Part shown: positions 57,599-64,000 of the stretch, piece after piece
Layout of the letters: every line of letters starts with the position of its first letter
How positions within the stretch are numbered: position 1 is the first letter of the stretch
Program-made: the position numbers and the translations under genes
NCBI GenBank assembly: GCA_013298145.1
Contig: JAAFJO010000001.1
Location: 682,001-746,000, forward strand
DNA: 64,000 nucleotides
Direction: 5' to 3'
From: Betaproteobacteria bacterium
GTDB lineage: Bacteria; Pseudomonadota; Gammaproteobacteria; Burkholderiales; Casimicrobiaceae
The notes under the pieces: model-generated
The model's input: the letters and a program-made list of their open reading frames with translations, nothing else
Told to the model about the DNA's origin: nothing
Databases searched by the model: none

Positions 57599-58789
57599 CT
57601 ATTTCAACTTCGCAATCGCATTCTGTTGCTGGTGCCAAACGTGTGCCGCCTGCTGCGGTCGATACTGCGCAACAGCTTGCTGGATTCGGTGAATTACTTC
57701 TGCGGGTTGACTCACATGGCATGTTTCACGACCGAACTTGATGAGCGCCTGGAGGTTTGGCCACTCACGACTTCTGTGCAGATTCAGTGCCATCCGATCG
57801 TTTGGTAGGTGTAGTGTTGTTGTTACTACATCGTAGAGCGGGGAAAGTCGGCAATCGTCGCTAGTTGGGTCGGTATAGAGCAAGCCGAAGTTTTTCAGAT
57901 GAGCATCGCCGTTTCTTAGCAAGGTTGAGAGCACGACTGATTCGTAAAGCGTTCTCAGGGACGTGGCGCGATAGGCTGGGGACGCGTTGAGCGCGATTGC
58001 CTTCGCGATGCCTTCATAGCTGCCCTCGTATTTGTCTGCATTTTGTTTGCCTTGCAAACTCACCATGTCTTCAAAGCCGAGCGGAGCACCATCGACGCGA
58101 TCAAAGCGTGAAATGACAAGCCGCTTCTCGTCTTCGGAGAGCCAGAATTCAGGTACGTCGAGCCCGGCCGCCCGTGCAATCGAGAGGCAATGAAACTCGT
58201 TCGAAACTAGATGTGGGAGTTCTGGTTCTCCAGCCTTTACGATGTAGTCACCCGTCTTGACGGCGGCGCGAGCGGCGAGGCTTAGCTTGTCGGGGGCGGG
58301 TTCGCACGGCTCGAATTCTGTCGTAGCGGTCAACAACACCTTCGGGTGCACGCCTGCCACTGCAGAGCTGAACAGGTAGCGTTCACAGAGATCATCAAAG
58401 AGCGCGCGATTACCTTGATCGGCAAGCAGCTCACGCAAGGCGATGTTTGCCGGCCGACTCGCGTCGCGCTGATCTACGCTTACGCGAAGCCGCCCGATTG
58501 CGTCGCCGCTGGAGAGCGCGAGCAACGCCATGTCGTTGATTTTGAATGTTTTCCCGAATCTGTCGCGTAGCCGATTCGCGACGAATCCTTCTGGCAAAAA
58601 AGTTTGCAGCGCGGGAAGCATCAGCGTGTGTTCGTAACTCGCAAGTCGAACGGGCATGGTGAGCGAAATCGCCGCGCTTGGCTGATGCAAGACTGCTGGG
58701 TCATACGCGAAGACATGGCGACCGTGTTGCTCCAATCGCCCCGACACAGCGTTTGGGGTTCGAATGAATAGTCGGTTGATGCGCTCCAC
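57599..58789 (-). CDS. hipA: HipA-type toxin kinase
   Basis: 396 residues. HipA kinases phosphorylate glutamyl-tRNA synthetase or similar targets and cause persistence. The N-terminal subdomain runs to about residue 110 (LPALQTFLPEGFVANRLRDRFG). It is followed by GVHPKVLL (P-loop-like), YIVKAGEPELPHLVSNE, the catalytic LLRNGDAHLKNFGLLY and the metal-binding LSPLYDVV. All are conserved. It begins 3 bases after the hipB stop. Unlike some relatives no extra domain is present. Toxicity is inferred. Confidence 0.9.
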   Translation of the reverse strand: MERINRLFIRTPNAVSGRLEQHGRHVFAYDPAVLHQPSAAISLTMPVRLASYEHTLMLPALQTFLPEGFVANRLRDRFGKTFKINDMALLALSSGDAIGRLRVSVDQRDASRPANIALRELLADQGNRALFDDLCERYLFSSAVAGVHPKVLLTATTEFEPCEPAPDKLSLAARAAVKTGDYIVKAGEPELPHLVSNEFHCLSIARAAGLDVPEFWLSEDEKRLVISRFDRVDGAPLGFEDMVSLQGKQNADKYEGSYEGIAKAIALNASPAYRATSLRTLYESVVLSTLLRNGDAHLKNFGLLYTDPTSDDCRLSPLYDVVTTTLHLPNDRMALNLHRSREWPNLQALIKFGRETCHVSQPAEVIHRIQQAVAQYRPQQAAHVWHQQQNAIAKLK

Positions 58790-58792
58790 TAA

Positions 58793-59038
58793 TTAGCGCT
58801 CGTCGTAGGTTGCAGCGAGTTGATCAAGCGTGGGTCGCAAGGTTGGCGCAACAGACAGCGTCGCGCCGAGCGACGCCAGCACGGTCATCACACGACCGAT
58901 TGGTGCGCTTGGATCGCCGGCCTCCATCCGCGTTAGGCTCCGCGCGGGAATGCCAGTTCGCGATGACAGCTGCACAAGCGTAAGCCCAGCGTTTTTACGC
59001 AGCGTTTTGATTTCTTTCGCGAGCGTCCGAGCATCCAT
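58793..59038 (-). CDS. hipB: HipB-type XRE antitoxin
   Basis: 81 residues. A Cro/C1-type helix-turn-helix spans about 8-60 (IKTLRKNAGLTLVQLSSRTG, then IPARSLTRMEAGDPSAPI). It would bind the operator and neutralise HipA, whose gene follows 3 bases on. Two identical GCCAAATATGGC boxes upstream are likely its binding sites. Length and order match hipBA operons. Confidence 0.88.
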   Translation of the reverse strand: MDARTLAKEIKTLRKNAGLTLVQLSSRTGIPARSLTRMEAGDPSAPIGRVMTVLASLGATLSVAPTLRPTLDQLAATYDER

Positions 59039-60789: not shown

Positions 60790-61365
60790 ATGCCTTTGTC
60801 TGCCCCACAGCCGCGCGAACGCCTGCATCTCCGTCGGGTGAGCTATGAAGGTTTCCGTCGTACCGATGGCTTGTTTGATATCGATGCCACGCTTGTCGAC
60901 AGCAAGGATCATGACTATCCGCTCGCGATGGGAATGCGTGAAAAGTCAGTGCCTGTGCACGAAATGCGCGTTCGGGTCACGATCGACACTCGTTTCAACG
61001 TGCTCGACATTGAAGCGACCACTGAAAACATGCCCTACCCAGGCCATTGCAACACGATCGGGCCCGATTACAAAAAGCTCATCGGCGCGAACCTGATGAA
61101 GGGCTTTCGCAAATCAATTGCTGAGCACATGGGCGGCGTGAAGGGTTGCACTCATATTTCCGAGCTCTTGGGCTATTTGCCGACGGCCGCAGTGCAAACC
61201 TTTGCGGGGCTCAAGCGCGAAACCGAAGGCTGGGGCGACAAGAAGCCTTTCCAACTTGATGCCTGTCATGCACTCGACACGCGTGGCGAGGCGGCCCGAC
61301 TTTACTATCCAAAGTGGTACGCGGGCGCGGAGCTAAGTTCTTTGGCAGTGACGAGTGACGAGTGA
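60790..61365 (+). CDS. DUF2889 domain protein
   Basis: 191 residues from ATG 60790 ([20 protein letters not shown]). The DUF2889 family is found mainly in proteobacteria, and its conserved segments are visible: [56 protein letters not shown] and [16 protein letters not shown]. Function is unknown. It is divergent from glpK. The last residues (VTSDE) are encoded within a short tandem repeat that also supplies the stop codon. Confidence 0.85.
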
Positions 61366-61380
61366 CGAGTAACGAGTGCG
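61346..61380. repeat. Short gtgacga tandem repeat at the DUF2889 stop
   Basis: The unit gtgacga occurs three times in a row, then as gtaacga. Complementary segments (cgtcactggtcac) lie about 75-100 bases on at 61453. The stop codon of the DUF2889 gene is inside the array. Confidence 0.7.
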
Positions 61381-61513
61381 CAAGCGCAATCGATAGTCGA
61401 GACTAGTTACCAATGGCGATCAATGGGTGTGCAGCGACGAATCGATAGGTTCGTCACTGGTCACCCATCAGTCATCACTTTTTCCGTTATTGAATAACAA
61501 AGGGGTCACGCAA

Positions 61514-63430
61514 GTGAAAATCCACGAGTACCAAGGTAAACAAATTCTTCGCGAGTTCGGCGTTCCCGTGCCGCGCGGCATTCCGGCGTTTAGCGTCGAT
61601 GAGGCGGTGAAAGCGGCTGAAGAGCTGGGCGGTCCGGTGTGGGTCGTGAAGGCGCAGATTCATGCAGGCGGTCGCGGCAAAGGCGGCGGCGTAAAGATTG
61701 CAAAATCGATCGAGGAAGTGCGCGAAAAGGCATCGCAAATTCTCGGCATGCAATTGATCACGCATCAAACCAGCGCCGAAGGCCAAAAGGTGCGTCGCCT
61801 CTTCATCGAAGAAGGTGCGAACATCGCCAAAGAGCTCTACGTATCGATGGTCGTTGATCGTGGCAGCCAGCGCATCGCGCTTCTCGCATCAAGCGAGGGC
61901 GGCATGGATATCGAAGAGGTCGCGCACAAAAATCCTGACGCGATCAAGAAAATTTTCATTGATCCGGGCAAGGGCCTGACTGATGTCGAGTGTGATGAGA
62001 TTTCCGGCGCAATCGGCATTCCTGCCGCATCGTTCGGCGAAGCGCGCAAATGTCTGCAGGGCCTCTACAAAGCGTTCATCGAAAAAGATGCATCGCTGGC
62101 CGAAATCAATCCGCTGATCGTTGCGGGCGACGGCAAAGTGATCGCGCTCGATGCGAAATTCAATTTCGATTCGAACGCGCTCTTCCGTCATCCAGAAATC
62201 GTCGCTATGCGCGATTTGGATGAAGAGGATCCGGCTGAGATCGAGGCCTCGAAATTTGATTTGGCCTACATCTCGCTCGACGGCGATATTGGCTGTTTGG
62301 TGAACGGTGCAGGCCTTGCGATGAGCACGATGGACACCATCAAGCTCTACGGCGGCGAACCGGCAAACTTCTTAGACGTCGGCGGTGGCGCAACCACTGA
62401 GAAGGTGACCGAAGCCTTCAAGATCATGCTCAAAAACCCGAATCTCAAAGCGATTCTGGTCAACATTTTCGGCGGCATCATGAAGTGCGACACCATTGCC
62501 GAAGGCGTGGTTGCTGCGTCGAAAGCAGTGGGGCTTAAAGTGCCACTAGTCGTGCGCATGAAGGGTACTAACGAAGAGCTCGGCAAAAAGATTCTCGCCG
62601 AATCAGGTTTGCCGATCATCACCGCAAACAATATGGGCGAGGCGGCGGAAAAAGTCGTCGCCGCAGCGAAGAGTTTTGCGACGCAAGCCCCACTTGCTGC
62701 AGGCGTTGCAGCGTTAAGCGGTGCCGCAGTGGCGGCCGCCTCGGGGGCTTCAAGCACGGCAGGTTCCGCAGCGTCTGCAGTTGCGTCTAGCGCAGCAAGC
62801 ACTGCTGCGAGCGGCGCTGCGGCTGCGTCTCGCGCGCTTGAGCCCTCTGCACCCATCGCTGGGTGGATGAAATGGCTCGGTTTAATTGTTGGCGCGATTG
62901 CCGCGGCCTACCTGTTGAAGATCTTTTCGCAGCCAAAGGAAGCCGCGAAACTTGCTGACAAGCCCGCTGTGAGCACCGCCCCTGCCGCGACGCCAGCACC
63001 GGCTACACCACCCGCAGCGCCAGCAGCAGTTGTTACCGCGCCTGCACCCGCCGCCGGCGCACCTGTCATGAGCGCCGCCGAGGCGTTCAAAGCGGGCGCA
63101 AAATCGTTCAAGCTCGATGTTGAATTCGATACCGGCAGCGCGAAGATTCGTGGCGAAGCGGTGAAAGATTTGAACGAACTCGCTGAGCTAATTAAAGACG
63201 GCAAAACCAAAGGCGAAATCGCAGGACACACGGACAACGTGGGCGACGCTGCCGCGAACCTGAAGCTCTCCCAAGCGCGCGCCGAAAGTGTGGTCGCGTA
63301 TCTCATCGGCAAGGGCGTTCCCAAGGACGCGCTCGCCGCCAAAGGCTACGGCGACACCAAGCCGCTCGGTCCGAACGACAGCGACGCCAACAAGCAACGT
63401 AATCGTCGTGTTGAATTCAACGCGCTGTAA
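61514..63430 (+). CDS. sucC: Succinyl-CoA ligase beta subunit fused to a membrane helix and OmpA-like domain
   Basis: A single 638-residue frame from GTG 61514 (AAGGGG upstream). Residues 1-386 are a full Suc[23 protein letters not shown]-grasp [46 protein letters not shown], ending at [18 protein letters not shown], where SucC normally stops (about 387). The frame then goes on: an Ala/Ser-rich linker (387-450), one transmembrane helix (about 451-472: [18 protein letters not shown]), a Pro/Ala linker (473-520) and an OmpA-type domain (about 531-638). That domain shows the expected [20 protein letters not shown] and [13 protein letters not shown]. No stop or shift separates them. With sucD 23 bases on, it forms the ligase that makes ATP or GTP in the TCA cycle. 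The tail would tether it to the membrane and maybe to peptidoglycan. Confidence 0.9.
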
Positions 63431-63453: not shown

Positions 63454-64000
63454 ATGTCGATCCTCATCAACAAAGACACCAAAGTCATCACCCAAGGCAT
63501 CACCGGCAAAACCGGGCAATTCCACACACGCGGCTGCGCTGCGTATGCAAACGGAAAGAACGCGTTCGTCGCGGGTGTGAACCCGAAAAAAGCAGGCGAA
63601 GATTTCGAAGGCATCCCGATTTACGCGAGCGTGAAAGAAGCGAAAGCGCAAACCGGCGCCACGGTCAGCGTGATCTACGTGCCGCCGTCAGGCGCAGCCG
63701 CTGCGATTGACGAAGCGGTAGACGCAGAGCTCGATCTTGTGATCTGCATCACCGAAGGCATCCCGGTGCTCGACATGATGAAAACGCGCTACAAAATGCA
63801 GGGCAAGAAAACGCTTTTGCTCGGACCCAACTGCCCAGGCCTCATCACGCCCGATGAAATCAAAATTGGCATCATGCCCGGCCATATTCACAAGAAAGGC
63901 CGCATCGGCGTCGTCTCACGCTCGGGCACGTTGACTTACGAAGCGGTGGGTCAACTCACTGAACTCGGCCTCGGTCAATCAAGCGCGGTCGGCATCGGTG
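63454..64000 (+). CDS. sucD: Succinyl-CoA ligase alpha subunit (truncated by window end)
   Basis: Partner of the upstream sucC product in the succinyl-CoA synthetase heteromer. The first 182 codons are present from ATG 63454, with GAAGGAAT upstream. The start [20 protein letters not shown] and the CoA-binding [11 protein letters not shown] are typical, followed by [20 protein letters not shown] and [13 protein letters not shown]. The catalytic histidine (about residue 246) lies beyond the window. It appears normal, with no fusion seen so far. Confidence 0.96.

Follow-up and report, generated by a model that had tools for sequence, protein, structure and literature searches.

A succinyl-CoA synthetase beta subunit with a conserved C-terminal helix and a lineage-specific OmpA-type domain: a candidate membrane-anchored enzyme

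Introduction

The beta subunit of succinyl-CoA synthetase (SucC) is a textbook soluble enzyme. In the window analysed here, a stretch of 64,000 nucleotides from a little-known betaproteobacterial genus, sucC continues in frame into a hydrophobic helix and an OmpA-type domain. Judged from its sequence, this fusion is probably the working succinyl-CoA synthetase beta subunit of the organism in a membrane-anchored form. The enzyme would, with similar likelihood, be anchored in the inner membrane by its C-terminal tail and secondarily tethered to peptidoglycan. This article describes the parts of the fusion, its distribution, the selection acting on it and the readings that compete with this proposal.

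The Fusion Gene and Its Surroundings

The fusion occupies positions 61514-63430 of the forward strand, opens with a GTG codon and translates without a stop into 638 amino acids. A Shine-Dalgarno-like AAGGGG is seen in the sequence 8 bases 5' of this start (61500..61505, forward strand). The frame has an alternative longer open start at 61427; in complete relatives homology begins at residue 1 of GTG 61514, and their starts were set there too. Residues 1-387 (61514..62674, forward strand) make up the SucC part, delimited by profiles and alignment, with the Pfam domains ATP-grasp_2 (residues 2-202, 254.9 bits) and Ligase_CoA (residues 262-382, 110.2 bits). It is followed on the same strand by a fast-changing, Ala/Ser-rich linker 1 (residues 388-441, 62675..62836), by a conserved segment in which the motif L-x-PSAP-x-x-GW leads into a hydrophobic helix (residues 442-470, 62837..62923; hydrophobic window at residues 448-468, 62855-62917) and by a Pro/Ala linker 2 (residues 471-527, 62924..63094), the place of a BON-type region in five relatives. 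The OmpA-type domain (residues 528-638, 63095..63427; Pfam OmpA at residues 538-631, 74.2 bits against a cut-off of 27.2) completes the protein before the TAA stop codon (63428..63430). The preliminary description had proposed one uninterrupted frame of SucC, Ala-rich linker, helix, Pro/Ala linker and OmpA domain with TDxxG and NRRVE motifs; translation, Pfam and NCBIfam bear out this layout, and both motifs are present in the OmpA part of the translation. The structure prediction for the full-length fusion was poor and unusable (mean pLDDT 49.2).

The alpha subunit gene sucD starts 23 bases past the fusion stop and extends beyond the window end (63454..64000, forward strand; 292 aa in the related locus L037). 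Upstream of the fusion lie a DUF2889 gene and a divergent FGGY-type kinase gene, read as glpK. A tandem repeat of AGTGACG (4.6 copies, 61347-61378) is found close 5' of the fusion. Beside the glpK-like kinase, a HipA-like gene (HipA_C 148 bits) and a HipB-like HTH gene occupy 57599-59038 of the reverse strand and are a possible toxin-antitoxin pair.

Conservation in the Genus and Absence From the Outside Samples

The fusion was searched for in 40 relatives and then in 64 genomes for the family. A complete sucC occurs in 13 of the 17 genomes of the genus, and all 13 genes carry the in-frame tail with PSAP-x-x-GW and the helix, which answers the question of conservation in related genomes that the preliminary description had raised. 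The other four genomes are uninformative for the tail: the SucC matches of G005 and G013 (91 and 274 residues) run into contig ends, and no SucC match was obtained from G002 or G007. With the OmpA-bearing tails as queries, nine loci were recovered, eight of them genus records and the ninth a Vibrio OmpA-type match with 36% identity. The eight genus records, separately titled MAGs, correspond to G001, G003, G006, G009, G010, G012, G014 and G015 and are not extra genomes.

An assembly error, missed stop or frameshift that merges two genes would be the simplest dismissal of the fusion. Thirteen genomes show the tail joined in frame, eight of which are available as separately titled records, and the single-contig genome G004 holds the fusion in a helix-only form; the chance of such an artefact at the junction is practically nil, and chimera, missed stop and frameshift were ruled out as candidates by these separate assemblies.

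Outside the genus the tail is absent from the samples compared. The C-terminal ends comprised 136 distinct sequences, 13 from the genus and 123 others, after exclusion of segments no longer than 150 aa, of matches that stop short of residue 350 and of those with E > 1e-40. None of the 123 distinct SucC-like ends from other organisms showed a tail with helix, as judged by length and by eye: 121 stop fewer than 15 residues past the usual end, one extends by 18 and one by 45 residues. The longest, L081 (G164, same order), adds to SucC about 45 Lys/Pro/Ala-rich residues that resemble a histone tail and lack a helix. In the order and class samples, no non-genus SucC among the matches listed was stop-free past residue 400; the phylum-level search used SucC alone as query, so that tails are not visible by themselves. 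Of 399 genomes of the order sampled for an exact motif search, six belong to the genus; five of these gave one hit each, in sucC, and G016 was missed because its Leu codon is CTC. A motif match in G084, from another genus, was rejected as chance, having a stop within the motif frame and a long ORF in a different frame. Among viral contigs, 193 pattern matches included no relative.

The SucC Part as an Enzyme

The NCBIfam equivalog for SucC (NF001913) matches residues 2-386 of the window fusion with 582.6 bits against a cut-off of 370, whereas the malate-CoA ligase model stays below its cut-off (533.3 versus 604). Residues 2-386 align to residues 2-386 of the structure 1jkj_B. The nucleotide, Mg and substrate positions of E. 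coli SucC, which we take to be K46, G53-G55, E99, E107, N199, D213, N264 and G321-M323, are invariant in all 13 fusions. The SucC part is complete and motif-intact, as had been claimed. The fusion thus resembles ADP-forming SucC (NF001913, TIGR01016) from end to end over residues 2-386, in the downstream sucD and in these active-site positions, and differs from it in the helix (13/13) and OmpA domain (7/13) added past residue 388.

A sucD-type start is present 3' of the fusion in every one of the 13 genomes, at a distance of 14-27 bases in ten and of 379-397 bases in L002, L003 and L005. In G006, the genome of L002, a GIY-YIG nuclease-type frame (L038 4721-5041, reverse strand; 55.6 bits) lies between fusion and sucD. 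In G004, two tandem proteins sharing their last 25 residues adjoin sucD (L039 2179-5829, reverse strand), and one of them is a DUF5122 beta-propeller by profile scan.

In each of the 13 genomes the fusion is the only SucC match at E <= 1e-40; in five of them a second match row stems from the fusion's own OmpA part. G014 holds an additional 62-residue SucC-like fragment on another contig (G014:C57:16119-16304, 94% identity, E 4.3e-32), which could be strain mixture or contamination. SdhA and SucB each score above cut-off in 16 of the 17 genus genomes, and sdhA and sucB are near each other on one contig, for example in G000 (C18) and G016 (C83), with sucC on another. Their presence makes an ordinary TCA cycle likely, and as the only full SucC seen in such a cycle the fusion must function as an enzyme. 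Among 14 full-length SucB matches above cut-off there was no sign of a similar tail, the frames being ordinary (423-472 aa). With SucB ordinary and the exact helix motif present once, in sucC, in each of the five genus genomes that gave a match, nothing points to a larger TCA assembly at the membrane.

Tail Architectures

The 13 fusions range from 500 to 734 aa in length, with 112-346 residues past residue 388 (250 in the window), and take three forms. In six (L006, L009-L013) the helix is followed only by a Pro/Ala-rich tail, in five (L003, L004, L005, L007, L008) by a BON-type region and the OmpA domain, and in two, the window and L002 of G006, by OmpA without BON. The preliminary description had read the fusion as anchoring a TCA-cycle enzyme at the inner membrane and perhaps to the cell wall. 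A real, conserved and selected fusion stands from this reading; however, its constant part is the helix (13/13) and not the OmpA domain (7/13). The trait shared by all would therefore be membrane anchoring; wall binding would have been added in particular lineages and, with OmpA absent in 6/13, is not essential to it.

All seven OmpA parts have an Asp and an Arg spaced by 15 (in the window D574, 63233-63235, and R589, 63278-63280, forward strand). These are putative diaminopimelate contacts, assigned by motif and spacing; in Acinetobacter baumannii OmpA, according to a passage in PMC5974059, Asp271 and Arg286, which have the same spacing, bind diaminopimelate. A tblastn search for OmpA remnants in 12 loci, ten from the six helix-only genomes and two from the outgroup, gave one weak piece, in L009 (E 0.061).

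The BON assignment varies in strength: two of the five long forms exceed the Pfam BON cut-off of 27 (L007 34.5, L008 30.9), L004 has a BON_like match below its cut-off, and L003 and L005 have no BON match. All five align throughout, with 75-93% identity to L007. A model of the L007 tail, built from five sequences, has a mean pLDDT of 55.6. Its first BON unit, at residues 71-110, reaches 83-90 by 10-residue blocks, and a second stretch with elements in BON-like order is predicted with lower confidence.

Helix, Charges and Topology

Each of the 13 proteins has a single hydrophobic helix, located near residues 448-468 in the window. Since SucC needs access to SucD and nucleotides on the cytoplasmic side, the helix would have to run from an N-terminus inside to a C-terminus outside. 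SucC homology extends from residue 1-2, so that no N-terminal signal is seen, and the layout is that of a C-tail, with one hydrophobic helix past a predicted cytoplasmic domain; where OmpA is present, this domain stands between the helix and the extreme C-terminus.

The main weakness of this topology is charge. By Lys/Arg count the positive-inside rule points against N-in, C-out in all 13 proteins. The 25 residues flanking the 21-residue helix window hold 3-5 Lys/Arg after it versus 0-2 before it in 13/13, in a count that excludes Lys/Arg in the first residues of the helix window itself (present in 11/13); L007 and L008 become ties if these are counted as lying before the helix, and in terms of net charge L007 is a tie while L008 shows the opposite direction. 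The preliminary description had already remarked on denser lysines after the window helix, and the remark extends to Lys/Arg in the whole set. Both scores used also rank the window helix lowest in hydrophobicity among the 13, and shuffled window tails give an equally hydrophobic 19-mer in 22 of 500 cases, versus 0-7 of 500 for the other 12 proteins.

These charges, the weak window helix and the Ala-rich linkers would all fit a tail that is merely tolerated, with an uninserted helix and an extension that stays in the cytoplasm and has no envelope role. Such a tail is quite unlikely, as the motif is conserved in all 13 proteins and purifying selection on helix and OmpA exceeds that on the linkers (see below).

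The helix begins with Met-Lys/Arg in 11 of the 13 proteins, L010 having Met without a basic residue and L013 Leu. This resembles a signal-peptide start and suggests another arrangement, in which cleavage or an internal start would yield a soluble SucC and a separate helix-OmpA protein. By eye, however, none of the 13 sequences has an AGGAGG-like site at the usual spacing before the Met codon, which is directly preceded only by the G-rich Gly-Trp codons. L010 and L013 depart from the pattern, and six forms would release a helix without recognised domain; separate products are accordingly very unlikely. Eight of the 13 proteins have [RK]QC after the helix, a sequence at odds with the standard lipobox rule; that its cysteine might join tails by a disulfide is no more than a thought.

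Comparison With Known Systems

The membrane-anchored reading has its closest layout in 'evolved' or 'specialized' TssL (ImpK), described in passages of PMC3426401 and PMC8253398 as a cytoplasmic domain with a C-tail helix and an OmpA-type peptidoglycan domain. The former account has TssL C-tail-anchored by one helix of moderate hydrophobicity that is inserted by YidC, and an extra predicted peptidoglycan domain in ImpK (PMC3426401). The layouts are alike, but the cytoplasmic part of the fusion is a metabolic enzyme and not a subunit of a secretion complex. The TssL profile matches only the OmpA part of the window fusion, with 65.3 bits against a cut-off of 139.8, and the fusion is thus not a TssL member.

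For the L007 tail model, the best PDB match by Foldseek was Rv0899/OmpATb (2l26; 263 columns, E 2.3e-9, 29% identity), with low TM-scores (0.29/0.35) and an rmsd of 12.4 on a weak model. BON+BON+OmpA is a listed architecture that includes betaproteobacterial members (Table 1 of PMC7806268). Rv0899/OmpATb and the BON+BON+OmpA proteins stand alone, whereas in the fusions the module forms the SucC tail, and the window fusion lacks BON.

A separate PDB match is the chain 7f4v_aB, the photosystem I apoprotein A2 (PsaB), with an OmpA-like stretch at residues 758-862 (E 5.9e-15). The chain is presumably from Gloeobacter. Like the fusion, it is a bioenergetic protein with a C-terminal OmpA-like tail, but PsaB is a polytopic membrane protein. 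A literature search on this tail gave no paper. By analogy, the chain suggests that OmpA-like tails can join bioenergetic proteins.

Selection and Evolutionary History

Rates were estimated by region with the Nei-Gojobori method in ten pairs, the helix covering only 28 codons and several dS values being saturated. Between the window and G006, dN/dS is 0.018/0.629 for SucC, 0.036/0.992 for OmpA and 0.111/2.8 for the helix segment, versus 0.651/2.4 and 0.342/saturated for the two linkers. Between L007 and L008 it is 0.033/0.497 for the helix, 0.032/0.480 for OmpA and 0.108/1.004 for linker 1. Over the pairs, dN is 0.10-1.08 in linker 1 versus 0.03-0.25 in the helix, and 0.03-0.14 for OmpA in the six pairs with OmpA on both sides; even in linker 1, dN stays under dS wherever the latter is estimable, and what stands as linker 2 in BON-BON pairs is the BON part, also conserved. 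SucC, helix and OmpA are clearly under purifying selection and the linkers change faster. The constraint on helix and OmpA argues for a function at the protein level in this frame.

In a tree of the SucC part with 30 rows (13 from the genus and 17 chosen as outgroup), the genus is set apart at 100/99 and its four deepest branches are helix-only forms. Parsimony on this tree needs three changes for OmpA and three for BON. It favours an order in which the helix came first, followed by one BON-OmpA gain and later losses, with moderate node support (93/77 at the key node for the gain; 71/30 for the pair of L010 and L013). On the simplest account, BON would have been lost before the window clade, L006 would have lost OmpA, and L009 both.

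Several genomes of the genus also encode a stand-alone helix-BON-OmpA protein (261-268 aa in the copies read), including that of the window (G000:C20:32676-33473, 54% identity to the G010 copy). Such a module was thus at hand in the genus; its OmpA is clearly different, and for this reason the protein is not claimed as the donor. In L134 (1396-2751, reverse strand), as well as in L135, L137 and L138, the gene next to that of the stand-alone protein encodes a membrane-type protein whose helix-hairpin-helix match is weak and below cut-off, and the pair recurs in several genus genomes.

The free-standing protein, together with an OmpA constraint that nearly equals that of SucC within close pairs, would also be expected if SucC were a mere vehicle, the selected function being an envelope tail that links inner membrane and wall while the enzyme gains nothing. 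We consider this unlikely, given that 6 of the 13 proteins, the four deepest among them, carry the helix without recognised envelope domain (three of these six tails were profile-scanned).

Proposed Mechanism

In the proposed membrane-anchored form, SucC would fold and pair with SucD in the cytoplasm, as the intact sequence and the neighbouring sucD suggest. The Ala-rich linker would lead to the single helix, inserting with its N-terminus inside and its C-terminus outside. In the window species the OmpA domain would then be periplasmic and may grip the diaminopimelate of peptidoglycan, to judge from the kept contact positions, and this grip would fix SucC at the envelope. The likeliest gain might be an ATP- and succinate-making step placed beside membrane-bound succinate dehydrogenase or other membrane ATP users. 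The helix would be the earliest element in evolution, with the BON-OmpA module added later and lost again in parts. The chances are about even that a TCA-cycle enzyme is in this way permanently tethered to the wall via the inner membrane, on a genus-wide anchor with peptidoglycan-binding modules gained and lost.

Significance

The fusion is a new combination of known modules on an unexpected enzyme. Open-licence PMC text, searched by case-insensitive and noisy matching of 'sucC', turned up no SucC anchored to membrane or wall; the preliminary description likewise knew of no described form. Reports of a mitochondrial Krebs metabolon that possibly contains complex II are cited in a passage of PMC10238741. 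If true, the proposal would be an instance of bacterial central metabolism whose spatial organisation is genetically hard-wired, and a lineage with a TCA enzyme fixed in this way at the membrane would allow such organisation to be tested directly. The fusion also shows that nature can attach OmpA-type modules to an enzyme of core metabolism, and it is a candidate component for positioning enzymes at the cell wall.
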